Of a stretch of DNA of 64,000 bases, positions 42,413 through 61,600 are shown piece after piece. Both the position numbers and the translations under genes were made by a program. How positions within the stretch are numbered: position 1 is the stretch's first letter; each line of letters begins with the position of its first letter. Under the pieces are notes generated by a model. The model searched no databases. It was not told the origin of the DNA and was given only the letters and a program-made list of their open reading frames with translations. The DNA is from Methylomonas subterranea (GTDB lineage Bacteria > Pseudomonadota > Gammaproteobacteria > Methylococcales > Methylomonadaceae): assembly GCF_024505185.1 (NCBI RefSeq), contig NZ_JANIBJ010000020.1:1-64000 (forward strand), read 5' to 3'.

Positions 42413-43618
42413 TTAAAAAAAGGTTAAGTCGTTATCCTGGCCCAGTTCGGCGCGACTGACCGCGCTGGACGAAATGTGGTTTAGATGTTCTTCCGGCATG
42501 GTGTAATTCAACTCCATGCTCGCCAGGGTCTTGCCTACATCCAGCGTGTCGGCATGCCGTTGCGTGCCCGCTTGCCGGCTTTTTTCAACCGTCGCCTGTA
42601 AACCGAGCAGATTGTTTTCCACATGCGACAACATTTGGCTGACCCGGTCCTGGAACTGGAATGCGGTCAATACCGTATAAATCTCGTCGCGAATTTCGGA
42701 GCTGTTGGCCCTCAGCATGTCGGCATCGTCTTTGAAAACCTTCAAGGCGGATTGCAAATCGCCCAAGGCTGTCTGTATGCTTTTTTCCGCGTCATGTATG
42801 GTTTTGTCTTCGCTGTTGCCGGACATTTCCGACATTTTCAAGGTGCTGGCCATGGCGGCGTTGATTTCGGCAATTGCCGAACTGATTTTTTCGCCGGTGG
42901 AAGAGGAAAAACCGGCCAGCTTTCTCACCTCGTCGGCAACCACGGCAAATCCGCGTCCGTTTTCACCGGCTCTGGCGGCTTCAATCGCCGCATTCAAGGC
43001 CAACAAATTGATTTGCTCCGCCACTTTACGCACTTCCTTGGCCATGGCGTCCAGTTGATAGGTGTGGGCGGATAGTTTGCGTACTTCCTCGGTTACCGCA
43101 TGCTCGACATTTTGAATTTCGCGCAGACCTTTTAAAACGGCGGTCAGGGCGGTTCGGCTCTCGGCAAAGATACTGTCGATACTGCGGCCATCCTCGCCGT
43201 GTCCGGTGCCGGAAATGATACTGCCCAAGCGCTCGACCATCACGGCGAATCGATCGGTCAGCACGGTAATTTCCTGTTCGGTGTGACTGCGGGAAGTTTG
43301 AACCTGACGCAGTAAAATCGGTACGACCTGTATGAACAAGCGTTCCAACTCGGTGATATAAGTATGTACATCGCGCAACTTGGCTTCTTCGTCGAGTTGC
43401 CATTTTTGATCGTTGGCTTGCAGGGCTTGTTGTTGTTTGTTTGAAAACATGCCGCCCAGCACGAAGCCGGCCATTCCGAAAAATACGCTGATCGCGGCGC
43501 TGACCAGGGTGGGCCCCGTCATGGATATCAGCACCAAACCGCAAAATAAACCGAAGCAGGTCGGTAACAGGTAGAAGCCGGTTTTTGACTGTGTAGTCGG
43601 ACTGTCTGTGCGAGACAT
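42413..43618 (-). CDS. membrane-anchored chemoreceptor without periplasmic domain
   Basis: 401 residues. Two adjacent transmembrane segments (about 15-32 and 38-58) form a hairpin with almost no periplasmic loop. There is no HAMP domain. The signalling region has the tip [20 protein letters not shown] and the helix [22 protein letters not shown]-terminal helix with [18 protein letters not shown] follows, then a tail ending DLTFF. Such receptors sense cytoplasmic or membrane cues. It is the first gene of the minus-strand run, divergent from cheR with 175 bases between. Confidence 0.9.
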
Positions 43619-43793
43619 GAAGATTCCATTGGGATTTTGAGATTATGGCTTGATAGTAGATGGTTTTCAGCGCGCGTTCAACCCATTGATGGCCCATTGA
43701 CGGCGCGGTTCCAAAAATTGCTGGCGCATCGAAAGTATTCAATATAATTGATTGACTAGAATGCCGGTTTTGTTTTGTTTTTAGAGAGGTTTT

Positions 43794-44600
43794 TTGAGCA
43801 TTTCCACAATTACGCCCGAAGAGTTCGATGACTTTCGGCGCTTGATTTACAATCATGCCGGTATATCGCTGGGTCCGGAAAAACAGGTCATGGTGGCGAG
43901 CCGCTTGGCGAAAAGATTGGATTACCATGGCTTGTCCAGCTATCGGGACTACTTCAATTTATTGACGCAGCGCGATTATCCGGACGAGTTTCAAACGATG
44001 GTGAATATCCTGACCACCAACGAAACCTACTTTTTTCGGGAGCCCGGGCATTTCGAATTTTTTAAGGATGTGATTCTGCCGGCTTGGCGCGGTGATGTGT
44101 TCAGAGTCTGGAGTGCCGCCAGTTCCACCGGAGAGGAGGCCTACAGTCTGGCCATGGTGCTTGCGGAGAACATGGGCACGCGTAATTGGGAGGTGTTTGG
44201 CTCCGATCTGAATACGCGGGTGATAGAGGTGGCTCGGCAAGGCGTTTACCCATTGGACAGGCTGGACCATATGGATCCGGGTTTCCTGGAAAAATACTGT
44301 CTGAAAGGCGTGCGGGCGCGGGCGGGCTTTTTTAGAGTGGATAAAAAAATCCGTGCCAAGGTCAGGTTCGAACAAGTTAATCTCAAATCGCCACCGCCGC
44401 CCGGTTTGGGGCGGTTTGACGTGATTTTTTTACGCAATGTGTTGATCTATTTCGACCAGGATTTCAAAAAACAAGTCGTCGAACGTTTGGCCGCCGCGTT
44501 AACACCGGGTGGTTATTTTATTGTCAGCCACTCTGAAAGTCTGCATCGGGTGACCGATGAACTGACGATGGTGAAACCTTCCATCTATCGTAAGGGATGA
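43794..44600 (+). CDS. cheR: chemotaxis protein methyltransferase CheR
   Basis: 268 residues from a TTG start with AGAGAGG upstream. The N-terminal helical domain (ITPEEFDDFRRLIYNHAGIS) is followed by a SAM-binding domain (FRVWSAASSTGEEAYSLAMV, FGSDLNTRVIEVARQGVYP, FDVIFLRNVLIYFD). It methylates receptor glutamates. A beta-subdomain for tethered pentapeptides is suggested by the YFDQDFKKQVVERLAAAL region but cannot be proven by eye. It overlaps cheD by 4 bases. Confidence 0.95.
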   Translation: MSISTITPEEFDDFRRLIYNHAGISLGPEKQVMVASRLAKRLDYHGLSSYRDYFNLLTQRDYPDEFQTMVNILTTNETYFFREPGHFEFFKDVILPAWRGDVFRVWSAASSTGEEAYSLAMVLAENMGTRNWEVFGSDLNTRVIEVARQGVYPLDRLDHMDPGFLEKYCLKGVRARAGFFRVDKKIRAKVRFEQVNLKSPPPPGLGRFDVIFLRNVLIYFDQDFKKQVVERLAAALTPGGYFIVSHSESLHRVTDELTMVKPSIYRKG

Positions 44601-45193
44601 ATACATTACAGTTTAACGATCTGCGGCGGATTATGGTCGACCCGGGCGAATACTACGTCAGTAGCAAACCCGTGGTGATCTCGACTCTGTTGGGTTCGTG
44701 CGTGGCGGCTTGCCTTTACGACCCCGTCGGCGGGATTTTCGGCATGAATCATTTTCTGCTGGCGTATCGGGATTATCCGCGGGGCATATCCGTCATACAA
44801 TCCGAGGAAGGTCGCTACGGCATTTACGCGATGGAACTGCTTATCAACGACATGATGAAGCGCGGCGCCAATCGGGCAAATTTGAAAGCCAAATGTTTTG
44901 GTGGAGCCAATGTATTGAGATTGCGGGAAGACAGGCAAAACGAACAAACCGTGGGCGATGTCAACGTGGCGTTCATCAAGGCGTTTTTGGCTAACGAAAA
45001 AATTCCGCTGATCAGTGCCAGTTTAGGGGGTATACACGGTAGAACTGTACATTTTGTCGGTACCGATTATGCCGTATTCGTCAAAAGAATCGGCGAATCG
45101 CAAGAGCGTTTGCTGGAAAAACAGGAGCGCCGCTATTGGCGCATCAATATCGCGCAACATCAGCAACGCAAAAGTACCGCCGAATTCTGGTAA
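44597..45193 (+). CDS. cheD: chemoreceptor glutamine deamidase CheD
   Basis: 198 residues. The catalytic pair is Cys35 (LLGSCVAACLYDP) and His52 (GMNHFLL), spaced 17 residues as in known CheD. AKCFGGANVL and SLGGIHGRTVHF are further family motifs. It deamidates receptor glutamines to glutamates, preparing methylation sites. ATG overlaps the cheR stop; cheB follows after 36 bases. Confidence 0.96.
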   Translation: MNTLQFNDLRRIMVDPGEYYVSSKPVVISTLLGSCVAACLYDPVGGIFGMNHFLLAYRDYPRGISVIQSEEGRYGIYAMELLINDMMKRGANRANLKAKCFGGANVLRLREDRQNEQTVGDVNVAFIKAFLANEKIPLISASLGGIHGRTVHFVGTDYAVFVKRIGESQERLLEKQERRYWRINIAQHQQRKSTAEFW

Positions 45194-45229
45194 ACACAAT
45201 CTCATGCCAATCAATCCTGGACAAACGAC

Positions 45230-46324
45230 ATGCCGGATATAAAAGTATTCATCGTTGACGATTCCGCCGTGGTCAGACAAGTGCTGACCGCGCTATTAAG
45301 TGAAATTCACGGTATCACTGTCATCGGTGTCGCGCCCGATCCCTTGTTTGCCTTGAAGCGCATGGAAAGCGATTGGCCGGACGTAATTGTGCTGGATATC
45401 GAAATGCCGCGCATGGATGGCATCACCTTTCTAAAGAAACTGATGCAGGAAAGGCCGACGCCGGTGGTGATTTGTTCCACCCTGACCGCGAAGGGCGCGG
45501 AAGTGACCATGCAGGCCATGAGCGCCGGCGCGGTGGATATCATCACCAAGCCCACCGTCAACCTGAAAGGCTTCTTGCAGGATTCCAGAACCTTGTTGGC
45601 CGACGCCATCAAGGCCGCTTCGCACGCCCGGATCAAGAAAATGCCGACCGCCGCCGCGCAACCCTTGGATGTCAAGCCCAAATTGAACGCGGACCCGGTG
45701 ATTATGCCCAGCGGTTTGGCGCCGATGTCCGAAACCACCGATAGAGTGATTGCGATAGGCACCTCAACCGGAGGGACCCAGGCTCTGGAATATGTGCTGA
45801 CCCGCTTGCCTAGAACCGTGCCCGGCATCGTCATTGTGCAACACATGCCGGAGGCCTTTACGGCGGCTTTCGCCAAGCGGCTGGACAGTTTGGCGCAAAT
45901 CAGCATCAAGGAAGCCGAGCAGAACGATCGGGTGATACCCGGCTTGGCGTTGATTGCGCCCGGCGGCAAGCACATGCTGCTGCGGCGCAGCGGCGCGCAG
46001 TACCGGGTGGAAATCAAGGACGGTCCCTTGGTAAGCAGACATAGACCCTCCGTGGATGTGTTGTTTCGTTCCACCGCCCAAGCCGCCGGTAAAAATGCCA
46101 TAGGCATCATCATGACCGGCATGGGCGATGACGGTGCGCGCGGTTTGAAGGAATTGCACGACACCGGCGCCTTGACCGTGGCGCAGGATGAAGCCAGTTG
46201 CGTGGTATACGGCATGCCCAAGGAGGCGGTGAAACTGGGCGCCACCGACGCGGAATTTTCCTTGTCCGCCATTCCGGAGCTGATTATCCGCGCGCCCAGT
46301 CGGGCCAAACTGCTGAAAGCTTAA
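45230..46324 (+). CDS. cheB: chemotaxis response regulator methylesterase CheB
   Basis: 364 residues. The receiver domain has Asp56 ([13 protein letters not shown]). After a linker the methylesterase domain carries the triad Ser179 (IGTSTGG), His205 (VQHMPEAF) and Asp300 ([11 protein letters not shown]). It removes receptor methyl groups when phosphorylated by CheA. Its TAA stop shares the TTAA tetranucleotide at 46321-46324 with the stop of the convergent REC-kinase gene. Confidence 0.97.
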
Positions 46325-47610
46325 ACGGCTTGGTTGCCCGTCTCTTGTCGAACCGGCAGGCGGACGGTGAATGTAGTACCCTGGTTTGGCGTACTCGAGA
46401 CCTCAATCTTGCCATGATGAGCACCCACGATACTTTGCGAGGTTGACAGGCCCAAGCCGATGCTCTTGCCCAGCGGGTGAGTGGAAAAGAACGGTTCGAA
46501 TACGTGCGGCAAATGTTCCGGCGCAATGCCGTGGCCGGTGTCGGTGATTTCCACCCAAATCTGTTGCTGGTCATGGCCGGTGCGTACAAAGATGTCGCCG
46601 GCGGTCTCGATGGCTTGCGAGGCATTGACCAACAAACTCAAAAAAACCTGGTTCAGCCGGGCCGGCAGGCATTGAATGGGAGGGATGTCGGCAAAATCCT
46701 TGTGAATTTTTAAAGCGCCATTCATGCCGTGGGCAAAGATGCCCAGCGTAACTTCCAGGGCATTGTTGATATCGGTCAGTTGCCATTCGCTGTCATTGCC
46801 GTCGGCAAACTGCCGCAGATTTTGAATGATGTCGCGTACCCTGGTCAGGCCATCGCGGCATTCGAGCAACAGTTCTTTCATGTCGCGCCGCAAAAAGTCG
46901 AGTTCCTTTTCCACCTTCAGGCGCTGTATTTTTTCCAGTAGTTCCGGGAGGTTGTCTGTTTCGCCAACGTAGCATTCATAAGCATCCAGCAGTTCGAAAA
47001 TTTCCCGGTTATAGTTCTGTAAAGTATTGAAATTGGAATAGATAAATCCCAGCGGATTATTGATTTCATGGGCTATGCCGGCCGCCAGTTGGCCGATTGC
47101 CGCCAGCTTCTCGTTTTCCAGCAACTCCAACTGAATCAGTTGATTTTCCCTTAGTCTTCTTTGCAGATCCGCTTCCAGAAAGCTATTTTGATCCCGTAGC
47201 CTGTCGCGGGCCTTCTTGAGTTCGATTTGGGTGCCGACCCGGGCCGACAAAGTCGCCAGATTGCAGGGCTTATAAATGTAATCCACCGCGCCCAGTTCGA
47301 AGCCGCGCGATTCGTCCAGGTCCGAAGTCAAGGCCGTGACAAAAATGACCGGAATGTCTCTTGTTTGCGGGCTTTCCTTCAGCTTGTTCATGACTTCATA
47401 GCCATCCATGCCGGGCATCATGATGTCCAATAAAATCAGATCCGGCTGGGGGGTGGCGTGGGCAATCTCCAAGGCTCTAGGGCCGGAAGTTGCCGCCAGT
47501 ACCGAATAGTCGGACATCAAGCATTGCCCGAACACGGTCAGATTGATACTGTCATCGTCCACCAACAGGATAGTGCCGAGAAGTTCCGTTTTAGGGGTAT
47601 CAATCGTCAT
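46321..47610 (-). CDS. REC-histidine kinase (response regulator fused to kinase)
   Basis: 429 residues. An N-terminal receiver has Asp62 ([13 protein letters not shown]). A coiled coil ([20 protein letters not shown]) follows, then a HisKA-like helix with His181 in [13 protein letters not shown], and a HATPase domain ([42 protein letters not shown]). No membrane segment. The order receiver then kinase marks a phosphorelay element whose kinase activity may be controlled by phosphorylation of its own receiver. It is tail to tail with cheB, so it may be a side branch of the chemosensory system. Confidence 0.9.
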
Positions 47611-47958: not shown

Positions 47959-49599
47959 ATGCCAAACGATTCGATGACTGCCGCGCTTGAAACCCGGCAC
48001 AGCCTGGCGATACGCAGCGACGCGGCCGAAATAAAAATTTCCGTTTCTGAAACGACCTCCGTGCGCGAGGCGCTGGATCTGACCGAATTGCGAGTCCGCG
48101 CCGCCTGCGGCGGCCTGGGCAGTTGCGGCGCTTGCCTGATCAAGGTTTTATCCGGCCAGTTTAACCCGGCAACGCTGGCGGAACGCCAAAAGCTGCTGCC
48201 GGAAGATTTAGCCAACGGTGTGCGTCTGGCCTGCCAACTGCAGGCGCGCGGCTCCGGGGTCTTGTATCTGGAAAACCCGGCGCCGGCTTCGCGGTGGAAA
48301 AGTCTGTCGCAAATCTCTCGCCCGCCCGCATGGGTGGAAATCGCCGGCGAGATGCGCTATCCGTATGGTCTGGCCGTCGATTTGGGGACCACGCATATTC
48401 GCTTATCGTTATGGAACCGGCAAACGGGCCGGTTGATTGGCGCCCGCATGGGCATCAACCCGCAAGTTGCCTTCGGTGCCGATGTGTTGACGCGCCTGGA
48501 TGCAAACCGTCTGCGCATGCAAGACCAGCAGCGCCTGTGCCGCGAGGCCCGTCTGGCCATCATCGATGGCGTCCGCGATATTTTAAGCCGCGATATGGGG
48601 GAGATTACGCCCATTCTTGCCGATATCGGCCAGGTGTGGATCGTGGGTAACAGCGTGATGCTGGCTCTGGTCTGCGGCAGCAACGGTAACGCCTTGTATG
48701 AACTGGAGAATTGGCGGAAAAACCTGGTATTCCAGCCCGATGATGCGAATGACTGGCGCCGTGAATGGCGCATGCCGCATGCCGAAATCGGCATATCGCA
48801 ACCCTTGGCGGGGTTTGTCGGTTCCGACCTGTTGGCCGATCTGTTGAGCACCGACATGATCCGGCGGCCGGGGCCATGCATGCTGGCGGATTTAGGCACC
48901 AATACCGAAATTGCCGTGTGGGATGGTCAAACCGTTTGGGTTTCCTCGGTGCCCGGCGGGCCGGCCTTTGAAGGCGTGGGGATGCGCAATGGACTGGCGG
49001 CGGAAGCCGGCGCCATTTATAAAGTCAGTAAATCGGGCCAACAGTGGCAGTTGGAAACCATCACCAACAGCGCTGTGCGTGGTTTTTGTGCCAGCGGCTT
49101 TATCGACGCCGTCACCTTGCTGCTGCAAGAAAAATTGTTAAAACCTTCCGGCCGTTTTGTTCAACCGCAGCCGGAAACCGGTTTTTGTTTTGTAAGTAAT
49201 TGCCGACATTCGGCTATTTTTGCGAGCGACATCGATATTTTTCAACGCGCCAAAGCCGCCAGCGCGGCCGCCATGGCACAATTGCTGAATATGGCGGGTT
49301 TAGCGCCGGCCGATCTTGCAACCTTGTGGATTTGCGGTAGCTTGGGCCAACATCTCGATCCGCATCATGCCATGCGGGTCGGTCTATTGCCTGAAATCGC
49401 CGAGGACAGGATCAAGCGATTCAGCGACGCCAGTTTAGCGGGCTGTCAGGAACTGCTGTTAAGTCCGGATGCCATGGATCGATGCGAGCAAATCCGTCGG
49501 CGGGCCACGGTCATCAATCTTGGAGACATGCGTGAATACGAAGCGCTTTTTATCGAAAATCTTCGCTTACAACCGCTAGCCATGCAGGTGGCTGAATGA
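47959..49599 (+). CDS. RACo/RamA-like reductive activator of corrinoid proteins (2Fe-2S ferredoxin-ASKHA)
   Basis: 546 residues. The N-terminal ferredoxin domain has a plant-type 2Fe-2S pattern: Cys50, Cys56, Cys59 (CGGLGSCGAC) and Cys92. A linker follows, then an ASKHA ATPase-like domain with GLAVDLGTTHIRLSLW near residue 135, LADLGTNTEIAVWDG and a C-terminal LWICGSLGQHL. This is the DUF4445/RACo architecture that uses ATP to reactivate Co(II) corrinoid proteins to Co(I). It heads a six-gene coupled operon and its stop overlaps the corrinoid protein gene by 4 bases. Unusual in an apparently aerobic organism. Confidence 0.92.
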   Translation: MPNDSMTAALETRHSLAIRSDAAEIKISVSETTSVREALDLTELRVRAACGGLGSCGACLIKVLSGQFNPATLAERQKLLPEDLANGVRLACQLQARGSGVLYLENPAPASRWKSLSQISRPPAWVEIAGEMRYPYGLAVDLGTTHIRLSLWNRQTGRLIGARMGINPQVAFGADVLTRLDANRLRMQDQQRLCREARLAIIDGVRDILSRDMGEITPILADIGQVWIVGNSVMLALVCGSNGNALYELENWRKNLVFQPDDANDWRREWRMPHAEIGISQPLAGFVGSDLLADLLSTDMIRRPGPCMLADLGTNTEIAVWDGQTVWVSSVPGGPAFEGVGMRNGLAAEAGAIYKVSKSGQQWQLETITNSAVRGFCASGFIDAVTLLLQEKLLKPSGRFVQPQPETGFCFVSNCRHSAIFASDIDIFQRAKAASAAAMAQLLNMAGLAPADLATLWICGSLGQHLDPHHAMRVGLLPEIAEDRIKRFSDASLAGCQELLLSPDAMDRCEQIRRRATVINLGDMREYEALFIENLRLQPLAMQVAE

Positions 49600-50264
49600 C
49601 ACTGGCAAACTATATTCAGGCATATAACGAAGCCGTTTTCGAGACGGACAGGCCGGCGGCTCTGGCCGTGGTCAATCAAGCCTTGAGCGACGGTTTCAGC
49701 CCGGAAGATATCGTATTCGAATTGGTGATTCCGGCGGTCGAATCCATGATGGACAGGATAGAAAAAGACCCGGATTCCAATTTGGCCCAGCATTTCATGA
49801 CCGCGCAAATTGCCGCCGATGTCACCGAAAAAATGCTGGAAAAATTTAGTTCCCCGCCGCAAATCATCGGCAAAGTGGTCATCGGCGCGGCTTCGGGAGA
49901 CTTGCATTCCCTGGGAAAACGTATCGTCAGCGGTTGTTTGAAGTCGTTGATGGTCGAGGTGATCGATTTGGGCATCAACGTCGGCGCCGAGCAATTCGTG
50001 GAGGCCGCCGTCGCCAACGATGCCCAGGTGATAGCCGTGTCCGCCATGATGGTACACACCGCAACCGGCGAAAACGGCAGTATCAAAGTCAGGGCCTTGC
50101 TGAAAGAGCGTGGCCTGGAAGGCAGGATAAAACTCGCCGTTGGCGGCGCACCTTACCGCTTCGACCCCGAACTGTACCGTAAGGTGGGCGCCGACGCTTG
50201 GGCCCCGGATGGGGTGACTGCCGCCAAGGTGATAGTGCGACTGATCAACGAGGCCAAGACATGA
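49596..50264 (+). CDS. corrinoid (cobalamin-binding) methyl carrier protein
   Basis: 222 residues. The N-terminal helical cap (about 1-90; VNQALSDGFSPEDIVFELVI) is of the MtbC/MetH B12-binding type. The Rossmann-like domain carries the base-off/His-on motif GDLHSLGKRIV with Asp102 and His104, followed by the VEVIDLGINVGAEQFVEAA and VGGAPYRFDPELYRKVGADA segments. It should carry a methyl group on cobalt between two methyltransferases. It overlaps both flanking genes by 4 bases and is the likely substrate of the RACo-like protein. Confidence 0.95.
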   Translation: MTLANYIQAYNEAVFETDRPAALAVVNQALSDGFSPEDIVFELVIPAVESMMDRIEKDPDSNLAQHFMTAQIAADVTEKMLEKFSSPPQIIGKVVIGAASGDLHSLGKRIVSGCLKSLMVEVIDLGINVGAEQFVEAAVANDAQVIAVSAMMVHTATGENGSIKVRALLKERGLEGRIKLAVGGAPYRFDPELYRKVGADAWAPDGVTAAKVIVRLINEAKT

Positions 50265-51289
50265 CTCCCCGCCAAATTCTGCATGCCGCCCTGACCGGAG
50301 CCGCCGCGCCGCGGATTCCGGTTTTCTGTAATTTGTTCGATCACGGCGCCAAGGAAATGAAGCTGCATCCCAAGGCGTATTTTGCCGATGGTGCCTGCGT
50401 GGCCGAAGCGCAATTGCGCATGCAAAAGCGTTACGGATACGACAATGTCTGGTGCTTGCATTATGTCGGCAAGGAGGCCGAGCTGCTGGGGTGCAAGGAG
50501 ATTTTGTTTGCCGACGACGGGGTCCCCAATGTGGCCGATTTTGTCATCAAAAGCTGGGACGACATCGCTAGCTTCGAAGTGCCCAACGACATCACGCAAC
50601 ATCCCGCCTGGCAATCCATCGCCGATTGCCTGGCCGTCTTGCGCGGTGAAGTCGGCGCCAGCCATCCGATTTGCGCCTATGTCACGGCTTCCACCACTTT
50701 GCCCGCCATTTTGATGGGCATGGATAAATGGATGGAATTGTTTTTGCTGGGGCCCGCCGATTTACGCGACGAGTTATTGCGAAAATGCGCGGATTACGTG
50801 CAACAACACATCGCCGCCTTGCGCGCGGCCGGCGCCAATGTGCTGGTCTATTCCTCGCCCTTCGGCTCGCCGTACTTCGTCAATAAAAAAGTCATCGCCG
50901 ATATCGTCATGCCCTGGATGCGGCGCGACTTGGCGTTGGGAGGCACGGACGATCTGGTGTATTACTGCGGCATGGCGCCTTTCAATGACGTGATAGAGCC
51001 GGTTATCGAGCAACTGGGCATTCGATCGCATTACATCAGCCCGCTGGCCGATCTGGCCCAGGCCAAGCGACTGATCAATACTCGGGGTCTGACTTGCGGT
51101 GTCATCGACGATATCAAAATGATTCACTGGAGCGCCGGGGAAGTCCGCGCGGAAGTGCGCCGAATCGTCGATATCGGCAAACCCGGCGGGCATTTTTTAT
51201 TCGGCAACGGGGTCATGCCGATGGCGGTGCCGGAAGCCAACATTCGCGCCATGCTGGATGCCGCCTTCGAATTCGGACAACTGCCATGA
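50261..51289 (+). CDS. uroporphyrinogen decarboxylase-family corrinoid methyltransferase
   Basis: 342 residues, a URO-D/MtaA-type TIM barrel: MTPRQILHAALTGAAAPRIP, GANVLVYSSPFGSP, KVIADIVMPWMRRDL and a C-terminal PEANIRAMLDAAFEFG. In MtaA/MtbA zinc is held by HxCG and a late GCG cysteine. Here the first is YYCG (Tyr234, Cys236) and the second is GNG (Asn316), so two of three ligands are missing. It is not HemE: it lacks the RQAGR start and sits with a corrinoid protein. It probably moves a methyl group to or from the adjacent carrier; the other substrate is unknown. Confidence 0.85.
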   Translation: MTPRQILHAALTGAAAPRIPVFCNLFDHGAKEMKLHPKAYFADGACVAEAQLRMQKRYGYDNVWCLHYVGKEAELLGCKEILFADDGVPNVADFVIKSWDDIASFEVPNDITQHPAWQSIADCLAVLRGEVGASHPICAYVTASTTLPAILMGMDKWMELFLLGPADLRDELLRKCADYVQQHIAALRAAGANVLVYSSPFGSPYFVNKKVIADIVMPWMRRDLALGGTDDLVYYCGMAPFNDVIEPVIEQLGIRSHYISPLADLAQAKRLINTRGLTCGVIDDIKMIHWSAGEVRAEVRRIVDIGKPGGHFLFGNGVMPMAVPEANIRAMLDAAFEFGQLP

Positions 51290-51906
51290 AAACATACGCC
51301 TTACAGCCGGAAAATCCGCCGCCCCTGACCATGGTCGGTTGCGGCATCCTGCGCAAGGAAGTCGAGCGCCTGATCGAGAAAAATCACTGGAATCTGCATA
51401 CCCATTTTTTGGACTCGGCCCTGCACAACTACTTCAACCGCTTGTCGACCGAACTCAATCAAGCCCTGGACGAGCGGGAAAAGCTCGGCGAAAAAACCCT
51501 GGTGCTTTACGGCAGTTGTCATCCCTTGATGGAACGTTACCTGGAAGAGCACCACACCTGCCGCACCCGTGGGCAGAATTGCGTGGTCATGCTGCTGGGC
51601 TATGAACGTTTCATGCAAGAACTGGAAAAAGGCGCTTACTTTTTGCTGGAGGATTGGGCGCTGACCTGGCAGCCCATGATCACCGCCTGCTTCGGCAATA
51701 ACGTCAGCGTGGTGCGGGAAATATTTCACAGCGGCCACAAATACATGCTGGCGCTCAGAACCCCCTGCAACGGCGACTTTACCGAGGCGGCGGAAAGCGC
51801 TGCCCGCTTCGTCGACCTGCCCCTGCAATGGCTGGATGTCGAGCTGGATCATCTGGAGCGGGTCATCGGCGAAGCCATTGCCCAGCGTCTGGCCCAGCAT
51901 GACTGA
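51286..51906 (+). CDS. DUF1638 protein of corrinoid operons
   Basis: 206 residues, soluble. Conserved segments are LTMVGCGILRKEVERLI, LVLYGSCHPLMERYL, TRGQNCVVMLLGYERF and YFLLEDWALTW, which fit DUF1638, a family repeatedly found beside corrinoid methyltransferases. The conserved cysteines and histidine suggest metal or corrinoid chemistry, but no reaction is established. It overlaps the URO-D-type gene by 4 bases and the kinase gene by 8. Confidence 0.82.
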   Translation: MKTYALQPENPPPLTMVGCGILRKEVERLIEKNHWNLHTHFLDSALHNYFNRLSTELNQALDEREKLGEKTLVLYGSCHPLMERYLEEHHTCRTRGQNCVVMLLGYERFMQELEKGAYFLLEDWALTWQPMITACFGNNVSVVREIFHSGHKYMLALRTPCNGDFTEAAESAARFVDLPLQWLDVELDHLERVIGEAIAQRLAQHD

Positions 51907-53479
51907 AGCGGACCTTGTCCAAGCCTTGCAAGACCGGGTACAGCGTCTGGAAAACCGGGTACGCAAGCTGTCGGAAGACAAGGCCAATCTTTATCTGGTG
52001 CTGCATCTGGTTGAATTGTTGAATCCAGTGTCCGGAGTAGACAGTTTTTTGGAAAGTCTGATGTCGGCCCTGTGCGGTAGTCTGGGCGGTACCAATGTGG
52101 AAATTTACTATCTGGATGAAGATGAAATTCACTATGCCAACCTGCTGAGCGGCGAACGGCGAGTACTGGAAGGCATAGACGACGACTTGATCGCCAACGT
52201 GTTCCAACATCACGGTCTGGTGGAGGAATCGACCGATTTGCAGCACACATTGTTAAGGGAAAACATCGCCGCGGTTGCCTGTACCTGGGTGATGCCACTG
52301 ACCGTCGCGGGCAAATTTCTGGGCGCGGTGAAAATGTCCGACCTGTTGGGCTCGGCGCAAATGCGCAACTATCTGACGCCTTTTTTCTCGCATATCGCGC
52401 TGATTCTGGATAACAAAATCCAAACCCGCAAAGCGGAAAGCGCCAATAAAGCCAAATCCAATTTTCTGGCCACCATGTCGCATGAAATCCGCACGCCGCT
52501 GAACGGCATCCTGGGCATGGCGCAGTTGTTGTCCGCTCCTGTCTGTAGCGACGAGCAACGCCGCGATTATGCCAAAACCATTTTGACTTCGGGCAATACC
52601 TTGCTGACCTTGTTGAGCGATATTTTGGATTTGGCCAAAATCGAGGCCAACCGGCTGGAGTTGAACGTCTCGCCGGCCAGCCCGCAGCAGCTGTTGCAAG
52701 ATGTGCTGGCCTTGTTCCACGGCAGCGCCCAGCACAAGGACTTGCGCGTCGACGCGGTTTGGCGCGGGCCGGCGGCGAAACTGTATTTGTTGGATAAGTT
52801 GCGCATCAAACAGATGCTGTCCAATTTGATGAGTAACGCCATCAAATTTACCGAACAAGGCAGCATTGATCTGGTAGCGCGCGAAGTGGAAAGCGGTGAA
52901 ACCACATGCGTGCTGGAGTTTTCCGTCACCGACACCGGCTTGGGGATAGCCAGGGAAAAACAGCATCTGCTGTTCAAGCCCTTCAATCAGGTCGATAGCG
53001 GCGCCAATCGGCGGCATGAAGGCACCGGCCTGGGCTTGTCCCTGGTTTTGCGTTTTGCCGAATTGATGCGGGGGCAGGTCGGTGTCGAAAGCCAGGCGGG
53101 TCAGGGCGCGCGCTTTTGGTTTCGGGTGGTTTGCGCCGTTGCCGAGCCAACTTCGGTCGCACGGCCGGAACAGGCGGAGTCCCCGGCTGGGGCGTCCGCG
53201 GTCTATCCGCATGAAATGGCGGGAGGCTCGGACCCGGAAATGCCGGATACTTGCCTACCCGAAGGTATTGAAGCCGATATCGAAGAATTAAGTCTATTGC
53301 TGAAAAAAAACATGTTTAACGCCATCAATCAATTCAAAATCGTGCAAACAAAGTTGCGCGGCAGCGCCCTTGCCGGTCGCTTCGAGCCCTTGGGCGAGCT
53401 GATAAACGCCATGCGTTTCGAGGACGCGCACAGCCAACTCACGCAATTGCGCAAATTTATGGGGGCTTGTGATGGTTGA
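51899..53479 (+). CDS. soluble GAF histidine kinase of the corrinoid operon
   Basis: 526 residues from the ATG at 51899. A coiled-coil start (LQDRVQRLENRVRKLSEDKA) precedes a GAF-like domain (about 36-170; LVELLNPVSGVDSFLESLMS). HisKA follows with His195 in NFLATMSHEIRTPLNG, then HATPase (SNLMSNAIKFTEQGS, VTDTGLGIAREKQHLLFKPF, GTGLGLSLV). A helical C-terminal domain of about 70 residues (LLLKKNMFNAINQFKIVQTK) ends the protein. No transmembrane helix, so it senses something inside the cell, possibly the state of the corrinoid module. It overlaps the response regulator gene by 8 bases and is surely its partner. Confidence 0.9.
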   Translation: MTEADLVQALQDRVQRLENRVRKLSEDKANLYLVLHLVELLNPVSGVDSFLESLMSALCGSLGGTNVEIYYLDEDEIHYANLLSGERRVLEGIDDDLIANVFQHHGLVEESTDLQHTLLRENIAAVACTWVMPLTVAGKFLGAVKMSDLLGSAQMRNYLTPFFSHIALILDNKIQTRKAESANKAKSNFLATMSHEIRTPLNGILGMAQLLSAPVCSDEQRRDYAKTILTSGNTLLTLLSDILDLAKIEANRLELNVSPASPQQLLQDVLALFHGSAQHKDLRVDAVWRGPAAKLYLLDKLRIKQMLSNLMSNAIKFTEQGSIDLVAREVESGETTCVLEFSVTDTGLGIAREKQHLLFKPFNQVDSGANRRHEGTGLGLSLVLRFAELMRGQVGVESQAGQGARFWFRVVCAVAEPTSVARPEQAESPAGASAVYPHEMAGGSDPEMPDTCLPEGIEADIEELSLLLKKNMFNAINQFKIVQTKLRGSALAGRFEPLGELINAMRFEDAHSQLTQLRKFMGACDG

Positions 53480-55583
53480 TCCAATCGCGAAGGAACGCCC
53501 CAAAATTCTGATCATCGATGATACCCCGGTCAATATCGCCTTATTGGGCCAAGCCTTGCAGGAAGATTACATTATCCAGATAGCCACCTCGGGCGCCAAG
53601 GGCTTGGAGTTGGCCAATGAGGAAACTCCGCCCGATTTGGTCTTGCTTGATGTGATGATGCCGGACATGGACGGCTATGAAACCTGCCGGCAATTCAAGC
53701 AAAATCCCGCTCTGCGCGATATACCCATCATATTTGTCACCGCGCTGAACGAAATGGATGCCGAGGTGCAAGGTTTGTCGCTGGGCGCGGCGGATTTTTT
53801 GATCAAGCCGGTCAACATCGAAACGGCCCGCCTGCGTATTCGTTATCAACTGGAACGCGAGCAGATGCGCAAGGAACTGCAAAGCCGCGAGGCTTCGCTG
53901 CGGCTGGCGGCCAGCGTTTTTGCCTTTAGCCACGACGGTATTGTGATTACCGACGCCGAAAACCGCATCATCAACGTCAACGGGGCTTTTACCCGCATCA
54001 CCGGTTACCAGCTGGACGACATTCGCGGTCAAACTCCCAGGGTGCTGAAATCGGGTCGGCAGTCGATGGACTTTTACCGGAACATGTGGCACTGCCTGCT
54101 CACCGAGAATCATTGGAGCGGTGAAATCTGGAATCGTAACAAGCGCGGTGAAATCTACGCCGCGCTGACCTCTATTTCCACGGTCAAGGACGAAAGCGGC
54201 GCCATTCACCATTTCATAGGTATTTTTGCCGACATCACCTTGCTTAAAAATCAGCAATACAACCTGGAGCGCATCGCCCATTTCGACGCCCTGACCGGGG
54301 TGCCCAACCGGGTGTTGCTGACGGACCGGATCGACCAAGCCATCGTGCACGCTCAGCGGGCGAAAAATCTGATGGCGGTTTGCTATCTGGATCTGGACGG
54401 CTTCAAACCGATCAACGACTGCTTCGGACATGAAACCGGCGACCAATTGCTGATAGAAGTCACCCGTCGCATCAAGGGCTGTCTACGCGCGGGAGACACC
54501 CTGGCGCGTATCGGCGGCGACGAATTTGTGCTGGTGTTACTGGATATCAATGACGGCAGGGAGTGTCAGGCGGTTTTGGACCGGCTTTTGGCCAGACTGG
54601 TGGAGACCTCCATCGTTTCCGGTCATCATGTTTCGGTGTCCGCCAGCGTGGGCTTTACGCTGTATCCGAACGATTTTACCGATGCGGAAACCCTGATCCG
54701 CCATGCCGACCAGGCCATGTATGTTGCCAAGCAGCGCGGAAAAAACCGTTACCAATTGTTCGATCCGCATCTGGACCGGTTGGCGCTGGAGCAGGGGAAA
54801 ACCTTTGCCCGCATCGAACTGGCGCTGCAAGAGCATGAGTTCGTGCTGTATTTTCAACCCAAAATCAATATGCGGCGGGGCGAGGTGTTCGGCGTCGAAG
54901 CCCTGATCCGTTGGCAAGACCCCGAGCGCGGTTTGTTGCCGCCGGCGGCGTTTTTGCCGGCGATTTCGGATACCGAACTGGAAGTGGCCATCGGTAAATG
55001 GGTGTTGAGCCAAGCGCTACATTATTTGCGGGAATGGCAGCAAATGGGGATTCTGCTGACGGTCAGCATCAATATCGCCCCCTGTCATTTGCTGCAGGCC
55101 AACTTTGCCGCCGAATTGGCGGAGCAATTGGCGCAATACCCTGAACTGCGGCCCGACTGCCTGGAGCTGGAAATCCTGGAAACCGCAGCCTTGGAGGACA
55201 TCGAGCGGGTTTCGAATGTGATGCGGGCCTGCCAAAAACTGGGGGTTAATTTTGCCTTGGACGACTTCGGCACCGGCTACGCCTCGTTGACCTATTTGAA
55301 AGTGTTGCCGGCCCACATCCTGAAGATCGATAAATCCTTTGTCATCGACATGCTGAGCGATACGGAGGATTTGGCGATAGTGACCGGCATCATCAGCCTG
55401 ACCCGGACATTTGGCCGTAATGTCATTGCCGAAGGGGTTGAAACCATTGAACACGGCTTGAAGTTGCTGGCCCTGGGTTGCGAAAACGCGCAGGGGTTTG
55501 CCATTGCCCGGCCGATGCCGGCCGAGGCTTTACCCAACTGGTTGTCCAGTTGGCAACCGGTTGCGGATTGGACGACCGAGTAG
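53472..55583 (+). CDS. REC-PAS-GGDEF-EAL response regulator
   Basis: 703 residues from the ATG at 53472 (a GTG one codon earlier is possible). The receiver has Asp60 (LVLLDVMMPDMDG). A PAS domain follows (about 140-265, SHDGIVITDAENRIINVNGA), then GGDEF near residue 347 with an intact RIGGDEF active site, and EAL near residue 474 with intact VEALIRWQ and DDFGTGYASLTYLKVLP. Both c-di-GMP synthesis and breakdown are therefore possible; which dominates cannot be told. The last gene of the coupled operon, it turns the kinase signal into c-di-GMP levels. Confidence 0.94.
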   Translation: MVDPIAKERPKILIIDDTPVNIALLGQALQEDYIIQIATSGAKGLELANEETPPDLVLLDVMMPDMDGYETCRQFKQNPALRDIPIIFVTALNEMDAEVQGLSLGAADFLIKPVNIETARLRIRYQLEREQMRKELQSREASLRLAASVFAFSHDGIVITDAENRIINVNGAFTRITGYQLDDIRGQTPRVLKSGRQSMDFYRNMWHCLLTENHWSGEIWNRNKRGEIYAALTSISTVKDESGAIHHFIGIFADITLLKNQQYNLERIAHFDALTGVPNRVLLTDRIDQAIVHAQRAKNLMAVCYLDLDGFKPINDCFGHETGDQLLIEVTRRIKGCLRAGDTLARIGGDEFVLVLLDINDGRECQAVLDRLLARLVETSIVSGHHVSVSASVGFTLYPNDFTDAETLIRHADQAMYVAKQRGKNRYQLFDPHLDRLALEQGKTFARIELALQEHEFVLYFQPKINMRRGEVFGVEALIRWQDPERGLLPPAAFLPAISDTELEVAIGKWVLSQALHYLREWQQMGILLTVSINIAPCHLLQANFAAELAEQLAQYPELRPDCLELEILETAALEDIERVSNVMRACQKLGVNFALDDFGTGYASLTYLKVLPAHILKIDKSFVIDMLSDTEDLAIVTGIISLTRTFGRNVIAEGVETIEHGLKLLALGCENAQGFAIARPMPAEALPNWLSSWQPVADWTTE

Positions 55584-55664
55584 CGGCACCTGCCGCGAAA
55601 GCCTGTCGTTTTCCCTTATCCGCCATGCTGTGATAATCTCGCCGCTTTGATATCGGAAACCGCA

Positions 55665-56612
55665 ATGAAGTCGACCACGCCCATTCTCCTCTCTGTCTGG
55701 TTTGCAATGCTGGGTGGCATTGTGCCGGTCGATACCGCTGTTGCCGCCGCCACCCCGGCTGAGCGCGACAGCTTGCGCCTGCATGCCGGCATGCCCAAAA
55801 AGGCCGGCGACTCCCTGTTTTCCTATACCCTGGAGTGGCGGCTGGACGATGAAGAGTTATACCGGGTGACCGGCATGAGTTTTTTGAATCCCGATAAAAT
55901 CGACGGCGAGGCCTCGCCGGGACGGATTGCCAAAAAGCTGGTCACCGCCGTAAAAGACGGCATGATTCAATTGGACCCGAGATGGCGCGGCGTTAGCGTC
56001 ACTCAGCCGGGGGACGAGCCTGAACTGGATATCGCTAACAAAGCCGGTTATGCATTGACCTCGGCGGTATTTCGGGATTACAGCAATCAAGCCATGGGTT
56101 TCGATTTGCGGGGTAAAAACTTCAACGCCGCCGGGGTTCAGCTTGCCATCGATCTGGTGTATGCCGCCGATGTGGATTATCTGGATGGCTTCACCGCCAG
56201 AAAGGCCCAGACGGCTTCAACCGGTAACATCGAAATCCGTATCGACCAACAAGAGCCGATGCGCATCAAAACCGACGGCAAGACCAGCAAGGAGTTGGAG
56301 GCGGAAATCGCCGCGCAACTGATGCAGGCCCAATTGAGCGAAACCACGCTGGTGCCGCATATCATCAATAAGGATAAACGCAACAACAAGCCCTTCGACG
56401 GTAGCGAAGTGCAATTAAGCAATTTGGCGGCCAAGTCGCTGCATATCGAGGTCAGCGATCCCAGCCTGGGCGTGTTGGTGAAATTTAAATTCAAGGATGA
56501 AAATCGTAGCGTCAAGGTGGCGGAGCCGCGCTTCATGATGGCCGCGCTGGCGGTTCTGGTCGGGGGCGGCCTGTTTTATTTTTGGCGCGGGAGCCGGAAA
56601 AAATCGGCTTGA
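55665..56612 (+). CDS. secreted protein with C-terminal membrane anchor and basic tail
   Basis: 315 residues. A signal peptide (about 1-27, ending AVAAA) is followed by a mature domain with mixed strands (LRLHAGMPKKAGDSLFSYTL, DLVYAADVDYLDGF). At the C-terminus is a short linker AEPRF, one hydrophobic helix (MMAALAVLVGGGLFYFW) and the tail RGSRKKSA. This three-part end resembles exosortase or rhombosortase sorting signals, or simply a tail anchor. The mature domain was not recognised. It starts 81 bases after the response regulator. Confidence 0.75.
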   Translation: MKSTTPILLSVWFAMLGGIVPVDTAVAAATPAERDSLRLHAGMPKKAGDSLFSYTLEWRLDDEELYRVTGMSFLNPDKIDGEASPGRIAKKLVTAVKDGMIQLDPRWRGVSVTQPGDEPELDIANKAGYALTSAVFRDYSNQAMGFDLRGKNFNAAGVQLAIDLVYAADVDYLDGFTARKAQTASTGNIEIRIDQQEPMRIKTDGKTSKELEAEIAAQLMQAQLSETTLVPHIINKDKRNNKPFDGSEVQLSNLAAKSLHIEVSDPSLGVLVKFKFKDENRSVKVAEPRFMMAALAVLVGGGLFYFWRGSRKKSA

Positions 56613-58562: not shown

Positions 58563-58647
58563 CTATTCGCTCAGTGGCAACGACCCTCGAGTTTGCTATA
58601 GTGACGCGCCAATTATCACAAACGTGATCCAGCCAGTTTCCCCATTA

Positions 58648-61600
58648 ATGAAAAAAACCATCAGGCAATCCTTGCTCGCTTGGGCACTGCTCGGCTGCGG
58701 GCTTATAGCCACCGCTTTTACCGGCATTCAGGTCGCTCGGAGTATTGAGCAGGACGCGGTTAGGCAATTTTCCTTTACCTGCGACCAAGTCGGCTTGAAA
58801 ATCCAGGAACGTCTGGCGGCCCATGCCTTGGTGCTGCGCGGCGGCGTTGCGCTTTTCGATGCATCATCCGCCGTGACTCGCCATGAGTGGCGCGCCTATG
58901 CGGAAACCTTGCGGGCTGGGGATGTGATTCCCGGCGTGCAAGGCATCGGTTTTGCGCAAGTTATCCAGCCGGAGCAACTGGCGGATCACATCGCCCGTAT
59001 TCGCGGCGAAGGGTTTCCGGAATATAGCGTGCGTCCGCCGGGCGATCGCGCGGTCTACACCTCCATCATTTACCTCGAACCGTTCCGCGAGCGAAATTTG
59101 CGTGCGTTCGGATACGACATGTTCTCCGAGCCGGTGCGGCGCGCGGCCATGGAACAGGCGCGGGACTCGGGCGCGGCGGCGCTGTCCGGCAAGGTCGAAC
59201 TGGTGCAGGAAACCGGTGCCGAAGTGCAAGCCGGCTCCTTGATGTATTTGCCCGTCTATCGACACAACATGGCGCGCGACAGCGTGGAGCAAAAACGGGC
59301 AGCCTTGATCGGATGGGTTTACAGTCCCTACCGCATGCACGATTTGATGACCGGAATTCTGGGCGACTGGGAATCGCGTCAAGGCCAGACTGTCCGCCTA
59401 CAAATCCATGATGGCTTGGAGGAGACGCCCGCCAGCTTGCTGTTCGCCAGCAAGATGGACATGGCGGCGGGCGGGCGCGTACTGCTTAGGCAGCAGCGCA
59501 CCATCGATTTCAACGGGCATCGGTGGCTGCTGGTATTCGAGCGGCTCGGTACTTCCTACGATATAAGCTATGCCCCGGCATGGGCTACGCTGTTTGGCGG
59601 TTTGGTACTCAGCGGCCTGTTGTTCGGCCTTATGCGATCGATCTTCAGCACCCAAGCCAATGCCGCCCGCATAGCCGGCAATTTAACCAGGGAGATCGTA
59701 AGTCGCGAGGCCTTGCTGACGGAAAGCGAATTTCGCTGGCGATTCGCGCTGGAAGGTCCCGGCGATGGGGTTTGGGACTGGAATCTGACAAACAACCAAG
59801 TCTTTTTTTCCAAACGCTGGAAAGAAATGCTCGGTTATGCCGAGGAGGAAATCGGTGACGGCCTGCATGAATGGCGGAGCCGTCTCCACCCCGATGAGCT
59901 CTCTGAAACTTTGAGCGCCCTGCAAGCCTGCCTGGAAGGCAGGGTCGGACTTTTTGCGCGCGAATACCGTTTCAGGCACAAGGACGGCGGTTGGCGCTGG
60001 ATACTGACTCGCGGCATGGTGGTTAGCCGCGATGACGAAGGCAGGCCTCTGCGGATGATAGGCACGCATGCGGATATCACCGAGCGTAAAGCGCTGGAAG
60101 TGACCTTAAGGCAAAGTCAGGCGGAATTGCAAGAAGCCCAGCGCATCGCCCGCATGGGCAGCTGGCAACTGGATCTGACCACAAACCGGGTTTTTTGGTC
60201 GGCGGAGCTTTACCGGATATTCGGTTTAAATCCCGATTTGCCCGTGCCCGATTATCCGGATCAAGCCCGTCTGTTTACCCCCGATAGCTGGCTTCGTTTA
60301 AGCGCCGCCATATCCGAGACAAAAGAATCGGGTGTTCCCTACGAATTAGAACTTGAGATGATCCGTCCGGATGGTACACAGGGTTGGATACTGGCGCGCG
60401 GCGAGGCGTTCCACAATGGGGGTGGGGCCATTAGCAGACTCCACGGCGTGGCGGCCGACATCACCGCGCGCAAGCAGGCCGAGCTGTCTTTGAGAGCGGC
60501 GCACACGGAAACCCAACGCTTCCGCAAGGCGCTGGATTACGTGTCTTCCTACATCTACATGAAGGACACTCAATCCCGCTACGTTTATGCCAATCGCTTA
60601 ACCCTGGAGTTGTTCGGCTGTTCGGCCGAAGAATTGGCCGGTAGCGACGATAGCCGGTTTTTCCCGCCGGAAACGGTCAAGCAACTGCGGGAGATTGATG
60701 CTCGTGTTTTCAAGGGCGAAAAAACCACGGAAGAAGTTGCCGTCGTCCATGCCGGAGGCGCGCGCCGCGTCTATTTGGAAATCAAGACGCCAATTTACCA
60801 AAACGAAGACAGCAAAACGATTTGCGGTCTCCTGGGTATTTCCACCGACATAAGCGGGCTCAAGGAGCACGAGCAATATCTGGAACGCATCGCGCATTAC
60901 GATGCGCTCACCGGTCTGCCTAACCGCGTGATGCTGGCCGATCGTCTGTCTCAAGCCATGGCGCAGGCCGAGCGGCGGGGACAGCAATTGGCGGTGGCCT
61001 ATATCGACCTGGACGGCTTTAAGGCCGTCAACGACACCTATGGTCACGATGCCGGCGACCAATTGCTGATGATCGTCTCCAAGCACATGAAGCAAGCCTT
61101 GCGTGAAGGCGATACCCTGGCCCGTCTGGGCGGCGACGAATTCGTTGCCGTTTTGCTCGACCTGTCGGACAGCGGAGCCGGCCTGCCGGTGCTGGCTCGG
61201 CTGCTGAGCGCGGCGGCCGAACCCGTGCATTTGGATGGCTTGTCCCTTCAGGTGTCGGCCAGCGTCGGCGTTACCTTTTATCCCCAGGACGAGCTCGTGG
61301 ACGCCGATCATCTGCTGCGCCAAGCCGATCAAGCCATGTACCGGGCCAAACTGGCCGGCAAAAATAATTACCATCTGTTCGATACCGAGCAAGACAGGCT
61401 GGCCCGCGGACATCATGAAAGTCTGGAGCGCATCCGGCGGGCCTTGGCGGAACGCGAGTTTGTGCTGTATTACCAGCCCAAGGTGAATATGCGCGACGGT
61501 AGGCTTATCGGGGTCGAGGCCTTGATACGTTGGCTGCACCCCGAGCGAGGGCTTTTGCCGCCGGCGGTGTTTTTGCCGGTAATAGAGGATCATGCGTTGG

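Follow-up and report, generated by a model that had tools for sequence, protein, structure and literature searches.

The stretch of DNA analysed here, called the window throughout, comprises 64,000 nucleotides of Methylomonas subterranea (RefSeq assembly GCF_024505185.1, contig NZ_JANIBJ010000020.1, positions 1 to 64,000), whose genome amounts to 4.41 Mb in 104 contigs. It holds six genes, all on the forward strand and all starting with ATG, which overlap in series by 4, 4, 4, 8 and 8 bases, and in which a set of corrinoid methyl-transfer proteins is followed by a histidine kinase and a regulator for cyclic di-GMP (c-di-GMP). An earlier account based on the letters alone, the sequence-only reading, had given this order, strand, set of coordinates and overlaps, together with 2Fe-2S cysteines and DxHxxG, H-box, GGDEF and EAL motifs, and we found all of them as claimed. 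Loci of this kind occur in 10 phyla, and we propose, at a probability of roughly 55%, that the six genes form one signalling system in which the corrinoid/methyltransferase pair is the sensory input that leads to c-di-GMP. The genes, the domain of particular interest and a recurrent neighbour are as follows (pLDDT, predicted local distance difference test).

47959 to 49599, + strand: RACo-like corrinoid reductive activator (Pfam Fer2, Raco_middle and RACo_C_ter)
49596 to 50264, + strand: corrinoid-binding protein with a DxHxxG motif (Pfam B12-binding_2 cap and B12-binding)
50261 to 51289, + strand: methyltransferase of the URO-D superfamily without the MtaA-type His-x-Cys...Cys zinc ligands (Pfam URO-D; alignment to MtaA 4ay7 and CdmB 9rui)
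51286 to 51906, + strand: DUF1638 protein, predicted alpha/beta fold, with invariant C19, C78 and C99 (Pfam; model pLDDT 95.0)
51899 to 52438, + strand: dedicated GAF domain, residues 1-180 of the kinase, a long helix followed by GAF (AlphaFold2 pLDDT 90.8; Foldseek)
51899 to 53479, + strand: soluble histidine kinase made up of GAF, HisKA, HATPase_c and a C-terminal region of about 100 residues (Pfam; H-box TMSHEIRTPL)
53472 to 55583, + strand: response regulator REC-PAS-GGDEF-EAL with intact motifs, overlapping the kinase gene by 8 bases (Pfam; motif check)
46321 to 47610, - strand: REC-HisKA-HATPase_c protein, a divergent and recurrent neighbour of uncertain membership (Pfam)

The motif check of the window proteins returned, besides the 2Fe-2S cysteines, intact DLHSLG, TMSHEIRTPL, RAGD (before GGDEF), EALIR, DDFGTG and EGVET sequences. 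A kinase with H-box and ATPase domain adjoins a REC protein in which GGDEF and EAL are both intact, which is the arrangement of a two-component c-di-GMP pathway. The activator carries the RACo/RamA domains PF00111, PF17651 and PF14574 above cut-off, its closest PDB structure is 3zyy (E 2.9e-47), and the 2Fe-2S motif C-x5-C-x2-C recurs in 51 of 55 relatives; with scores below the NCBIfam cut-offs for RamA (TIGR04270, 95 against 500 bits) and AcsV (201.6 against 800 bits), it appears to be a relative of these proteins and not identical to either. Because the MetH of the same genome has an activation domain of its own and RACo_C_ter has a single match in that genome, the activator would be free to serve the module; a role as partner of methionine synthase was rejected on the first of these grounds. 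The corrinoid protein combines cap, B12-binding domain and DxHxxG motif, as do corrinoid proteins cognate to methyltransferases, and is closest in the PDB to 1y80 (E 2.2e-21), scoring below the NCBIfam pyl_corrinoid cut-off (95.4 against 215.3 bits). DxHxxG occurs in all 91 aligned corrinoid proteins, of which 81 come from loci of the window's type (class I, the window included) and 10 from the class II loci described below.

With the class I URO-D profile only two PDB matches were obtained at E<=0.1, the best being the methylcobalamin:coenzyme M methyltransferase MtaA (4ay7/4ay8; 4ay7, E 5.1e-13) and the more distant one CdmB (9rui, E 2.1e-5); the window protein lies below the NCBIfam cut-off for MtaA/CmuA (TIGR01463, 58.9 against 235.4 bits). 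MtaA has a His-x-Cys...Cys pattern, which we take to be its zinc ligands, whereas class I proteins mostly have Tyr-x-Cys...Asn/Thr: at the corresponding stretch YYCG is found in 75 of 79 relatives and HxC in none of the 79, and the last Cys is replaced mostly by Thr or Asn (YYCG ... GN in the window protein). At the His-x-Cys position the class II proteins have His-Leu-Ala, His-Phe-Ala and similar. Without these ligands the protein could still be active, since CdmB, a substrate methyltransferase of the URO-D superfamily, is described as zinc-free (PMC13222342); taken with zinc-free CdmB, their absence points to a reaction on the substrate side rather than to methylation of a thiol. Many URO-D columns are invariant among 15 Pseudomonadota sequences.

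Although the first 180 residues of the window kinase match no Pfam family, GAF included, the description of this protein as a GAF histidine kinase in the sequence-only reading is borne out by predicted structure. The AlphaFold2 model of these residues (alignment of 57 sequences, pLDDT 90.8) has 3p01 as its best PDB match in Foldseek (E 5.3e-7, template modelling score 0.61), and the matches listed are largely GAF, phytochrome or cyclic-nucleotide phosphodiesterase structures; in one relative, L056, Pfam GAF lies above cut-off in the corresponding stretch. The family has no invariant Cys or His. Its profile finds one copy each in 22 of 61 genomes, exactly the 22 with RACo (genome G016 having two RACo genes), and one copy each in 11 of 398 genomes of the phylum, exactly the 11 with a class I URO-D protein above 600 bits, the genome of the window being counted in both sets. 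No GAF domain of this family was seen away from the module in these 61 and 398 genomes, for each of which a limited number of candidates was scored. At the other end of the kinase, the roughly 100 residues after the ATPase domain (residues 426-526; 53174-53476, + strand) are kept in relatives, and in some of these, for example L035 and L054, a REC domain is inserted before them.

Of 133 aligned DUF1638 sequences every one has C78 and C99, and 132 have C19, the remaining one showing a gap there; the cysteines are conserved alike in free, fused and methionine-synthase-type proteins, and one might guess at a metal or Fe-S site. The predicted fold, of high confidence (pLDDT 95.0), had no PDB match at E<=0.001, the best match by sequence reaching E 0.21. 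In Phaeobacter, DUF1638 and a RamA-like protein are required for B12-dependent methionine synthesis, according to a study that proposes no specific role for DUF1638 (PMC5764234). A free DUF1638 protein just above the Pfam cut-off was also seen at L062 (genome G096, contig C2, 8286-8912), and in the surrounding 18 kb neither a corrinoid nor a URO-D gene could be recognised.

DUF1638 is present in 26 of 101 genomes, the window's own included, and the 31 regions fetched around its matches in relatives comprise 24 class I loci and 7 class II or other DUF1638 loci (L032, L057-L062). The co-occurrence of all six families in the given order, put forward earlier as a check, recurs in 20 of these 24 class I loci; among the four deviants, a contig end truncates L034, L047 has a regulator without EAL and a cut 5' end, no GGDEF regulator follows the kinase in L053, and in L056 the regulator lies upstream. 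When 84,980 species genomes were scanned by patterns with the URO-D alignment alone, 141 relatives were confirmed, the best 80 of which were kept. These 80 loci, many from metagenome bins, span the 10 phyla by record title, with URO-D identities of 51-87%. A corrinoid gene ends at most 400 bases upstream of the URO-D gene in 79 of them, and in the exception, L196, the URO-D frame is in two pieces, the first of which is preceded by the corrinoid gene. The GAF domain follows within 8 kb on the same strand in 77 loci (median distance 656 bases, maximum 5,149); two of the three misses are contig ends with 416 and 150 bases left, and the third, L168, is a genuine exception. DUF1638 lies within 2.5 kb in 68 loci and RACo within 6 kb in 55, and in 9 of 11 loci without DUF1638 the GAF stretch begins 47-119 bases after the URO-D stretch. 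The linkage of corrinoid and two-component genes is thus not local chance, and the notion of a local fusion of two systems is not borne out in view of a module that occurs in 10 phyla. What would have spoken against the connection, relatives with the kinase located apart from the corrinoid genes, was not seen, except perhaps at L168.

The output varies from locus to locus. Across the 80 loci, the protein that first carries the GAF domain is a kinase in 62 (plain in 29, hybrid in 33), a GGDEF+EAL protein in 3, a GGDEF protein in 1 and a PAS-only, other or cut protein in 11; 3 loci have none. In 15 loci, those of Methylomonas kin, a REC-PAS-GGDEF-EAL gene comes next, and GAF-PAS-GGDEF-EAL occurs as a single chain in L137, L138 and L151. 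The complete set of six is present, for example, in Methylotuvimicrobium buryatense 5G (L124). The sole such regulator scanned from a Geobacter-type locus (L167) is REC-HD; c-di-GMP is perhaps the output there as well. A quick URO-D tree, built from the window, 5 class II rows and 79 of the 80 loci, left 28 of its 82 inner branches open. On this tree the effector class requires at least 18 changes, some of its labels possibly being cut by contig ends, against minima of 5 for the presence of DUF1638 and 6 for local RACo; the input therefore appears to be stable and the output exchanged. Because c-di-GMP is just one of several outputs, the conserved unit is the corrinoid protein with the URO-D protein and the GAF domain, usually accompanied by DUF1638 and a nearby RACo. 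The tie between the corrinoid module and a c-di-GMP two-component pathway, central to the sequence-only reading, accordingly stands strongly by linkage, co-occurrence and fusions, with the amendment that c-di-GMP is not its only end.

The fusions are found in the class II loci, where a corrinoid gene and a URO-D gene (24-28% identity to the window URO-D) are followed by one chain that starts with DUF1638 and continues with a GAF-like stretch, often PAS, and then a kinase or GGDEF domain. A first set was found via DUF1638, and a second sampling took the 9 URO-D matches that scored lower in the phylum scan: seven are followed by a DUF1638-kinase chain (L094, L096, L097, L109, L232, L233 and L235), and the other two, L108 and L234, are cut by contig ends. 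All 10 class II proteins scanned have DUF1638 and an effector domain in one chain, with DUF1638 above the Pfam cut-off in 9 and at 26.1 of 27 bits in L096, and 9 of the 10 adjoin the corrinoid/URO-D pair, L101 lying at a contig start. A second corrinoid-URO-D-DUF1638 set was also observed on the contig of a class I locus in two cases, L155 (12993-15503) and L180 (16191-18496).

The module encodes one methyltransferase and no acceptor enzyme beside it. The pterin domain of the genome's own MetH matches none of the 132 loci outside the MetH type, against matches in 6 of 11 MetH-type loci that served as positive control (143 loci in all, L063-L091 left out). PF00809 occurs in the window's genome in MetH (contig C6) and in a 298-residue FolP-sized frame (contig C21), neither of which is on the window contig (C20), and in all 41 genomes tested, with and without the module, its frames are MetH- or FolP-sized except for one fragment of 451 residues and one frame of 541. 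The acceptor (pterin-binding) methyltransferase of catabolic cassettes is thus not seen beside class I or class II loci. MttB was found in none of the 61 genomes and MtaB in one, G016, and not in that of the window, MtmB not having been searched for. The sequence-only reading took the absence of MttB-, MtaB- and MtmB-type proteins from the window as favouring sensing or an unusual methyl donor; from that absence it does not follow that there is no substrate methyltransferase, because the URO-D superfamily includes such enzymes (CdmB), and what stands of the argument is the lack of an acceptor beside the module.

Corrinoid methyl transfer is known from metabolism, protein sets of this kind chiefly from the degradation of methylated compounds, and B12 also has parts in light sensing and gene control. 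The composition of the module, its linkage, its co-occurrence with the GAF domain, the fusions and the exchange of effectors, as read from sequence, lead us to favour a signalling system in which the corrinoid protein and the URO-D methyltransferase would form the sensory input. RACo would bring Co(II) to Co(I) by ATP-driven reduction, and the URO-D protein, as a zinc-free substrate methyltransferase, would transfer a methyl group from a small donor to Co(I), or withhold it. Because no acceptor methyltransferase is coded beside the module, CH3-Co(III) would persist as the signal, to be reset by demethylation or by oxidation followed by RACo. The state of the cobalt cofactor would be relayed to the soluble kinase by DUF1638 and the dedicated GAF domain, presumably through contact with the corrinoid protein, and the kinase would phosphorylate the REC-PAS-GGDEF-EAL regulator and so change c-di-GMP; as to the ligand, the chemistry and the sign of that change, we are in the realm of inference. 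Such an open half-reaction, with one methyltransferase and no acceptor beside it, is more in keeping with a sensor than with a flux pathway.

The main rival retains the same sensory module and takes the redox state of the cobalt as the signal: O2 or low reducing power would hold Co(II)/Co(III), RACo with a reductant would restore Co(I), and the URO-D protein would be a cap or scaffold instead of the enzyme that takes the methyl group from a donor. This is a possible explanation, if in our judgement an unlikely one. The MtaA zinc site is absent from both URO-D classes, as would suit it, and RACo is local in 52 of 53 Pseudomonadota loci versus 3 of 27 others, as if Co(I) needed more upkeep where O2 is met, the exposure of the host bacteria being that of their usual lifestyles. 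This pattern carries little weight, since RACo occurs elsewhere in 18 of the 23 genomes tested (completeness not given) for the 25 loci without a local copy; moreover, the URO-D identities over the 80 loci and the many invariant columns in Pseudomonadota are much for a scaffold. The extreme case, in which corrinoid and two-component genes merely share an operon without functional contact, gains something from promoter and terminator scans that were uninformative, and is hardly credible in the face of linkage over 10 phyla, a GAF domain seen at the module alone, and fusions.

More familiar systems supply two further explanations. In the mec cassette of anaerobic dichloromethane degraders, corrinoid-dependent URO-D superfamily methyltransferases, a corrinoid protein and a histidine kinase lie in one cluster, with reactivation proteins in most strains (PMC9768040), so that the six genes might be a catabolic demethylation system with its own regulator. 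We consider this improbable, more so than a redox signal. It is helped by the mec kinase MecA, which carries a PocR domain (PMC9768040), by URO-D substrate methyltransferases proven in CdmB (PMC13222342) and proposed in MecE (PMC9768040), and by genome G016, where an MtaB-corrinoid-RACo-DUF1638 set is followed by a PocR kinase. However, mec has a proposed acceptor methyltransferase, MecF, expression linked to its substrate, and a PocR kinase discussed in terms of transcriptional control (PMC9768040), whereas the window module has a GAF kinase, c-di-GMP turnover and not DNA binding as its output, and no acceptor beside it, its genome offering just MetH and the FolP-sized frame. The exchange of effectors, the DUF1638-kinase chains and the rarity of MttB and MtaB in the 61 genomes likewise argue against catabolism. 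A cobalamin photoreceptor that feeds the kinase, light breaking the Co-C bond and the change being relayed, has its model in CarH and the photocobilins, in which a B12 domain is the signal input, sometimes with GGDEF or GAF (PMC11796333). Their published signature, GxxW and EH together in the N-terminal part, is present in 0 of 91 corrinoid proteins here (GxxW alone in 13, EH alone in 3), and such a mechanism would need neither a methyltransferase nor an activator; we have rejected light sensing, whose probability is very small indeed.

Several observations weigh against the favoured reading of the module as a methyl sensor. The 11 GAF-positive genomes of the phylum belong to 5 genera, so that the co-occurrence count overstates independence, relatedness inflating it. 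Neither DUF1638 nor a nearby RACo is universal, and L168 has corrinoid, URO-D and DUF1638 genes, with a HAMP kinase about 1 kb further on, and no GAF domain in the 9 kb downstream. The GAF-like stretch of class II is weakly similar to the class I GAF domain by hhalign (probability 35%, E 4e-4), and hmmsearch gave no match between the class I GAF domain and the class II linker. The URO-D protein could be without catalysis, and the part of acceptor could fall to MetH or to an enzyme that was not recognised. Finally, the MtaB of G016 (L032; contig C2, 583-12608) lies beside a corrinoid protein, a RACo of the 4Fe-4S/ferredoxin type and DUF1638, without the class I GAF family, and is followed by a frame of 2,531 residues with protein kinase, AAA, GAF, PocR, PAS, histidine kinase and REC domains; in a methanotroph bin 77% complete and 5% contaminated, this set may be a methanol sensor of like logic, a catabolic set with its regulator, or contamination.

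The remaining known systems each share part of this make-up. The split methionine synthase of Phaeobacter inhibens likewise requires a corrinoid protein, a RACo/RamA-like activator and DUF1638 together, but there a three-part synthase makes methionine (PMC5764234), whereas the window module has no adjoining pterin enzyme and has a URO-D protein and a kinase instead. Methyltransferases of the CdmB/MtvB/MtoB type share the URO-D fold, the partner corrinoid protein and the activating enzyme (PMC13222342); the relation to CdmB is distant, and the module differs in being without an acceptor enzyme. In Methanosarcina the GAF-containing sensor kinases MsmS and RdmS are linked to methyltransferases, and their mechanisms are described as heme- or thiol-based (PMC11619418), whereas the window GAF has no invariant Cys or His and the methyltransferase genes lie inside the kinase operon. 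A set in Ruegeria is also among the nearest described systems (PMC12478193). We found no published description of the module, a weak absence given that most subscription papers lie beyond such a search; in a census-type review of c-di-GMP stimuli and receptors, a term search of the main text returned none of cobalamin, corrinoid, vitamin B12 or methylcob- (PMC8846402).

The surroundings of the module are less constant. Since promoter-like sites (3 against a mean of 5.8) and terminator-like sites (15 against 13.3) are not enriched in comparison with shuffled sequence, the borders of the operon rest on the gene overlaps. Of the 16 loci L120-L135, several of them truncated by contig ends, 10 have an opposite-strand REC and kinase open reading frame of 424-441 residues on their upstream side. 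Clustering of the genes flanking the 80 loci gave few common neighbours; the widest cluster, of 10 loci, looks like chemoreceptors on the evidence of two of its members and of the gene in the window. Chemotaxis genes (a methyl-accepting chemotaxis protein (MCP), CheR, CheD and CheB) stand directly upstream of the module at 42413-46324, and MCP-type genes were also seen near several distant loci. A second c-di-GMP enzyme, CHASE-PAS-GGDEF-EAL with a C-terminal zinc-binding CZB domain, lies 3 kb downstream (58624-62583, + strand), and a C-terminal CZB domain is also present in the single-chain proteins of L137, L138 and L151. Directly after the module is an open reading frame of 321 residues with a TTG start (55647-56612, + strand), whose form of 315 residues matches no Pfam or NCBIfam family.

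Beyond the window, we consider it about an even bet that the corrinoid/URO-D pair represents a distinct and widespread class of input, a non-metabolic chemical switch (methyl or redox) that is read by a dedicated GAF domain, usually with DUF1638, and that drives interchangeable outputs (kinases, hybrid kinases and GGDEF/EAL proteins) in 10 phyla, class II being alike with DUF1638 and effector in one chain. Whether the module deserves the standing of a class of its own within two-component and c-di-GMP signalling depends on biochemistry. DUF1638 gains a second context, more tractable than that of the methionine synthase study (PMC5764234), because class II places it in one chain with signalling domains. 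If the reading is true, methanotrophs, Magnetococcales, Geobacter-type bacteria and others would be using corrinoid methyl transfer for sensing in the cytoplasm.

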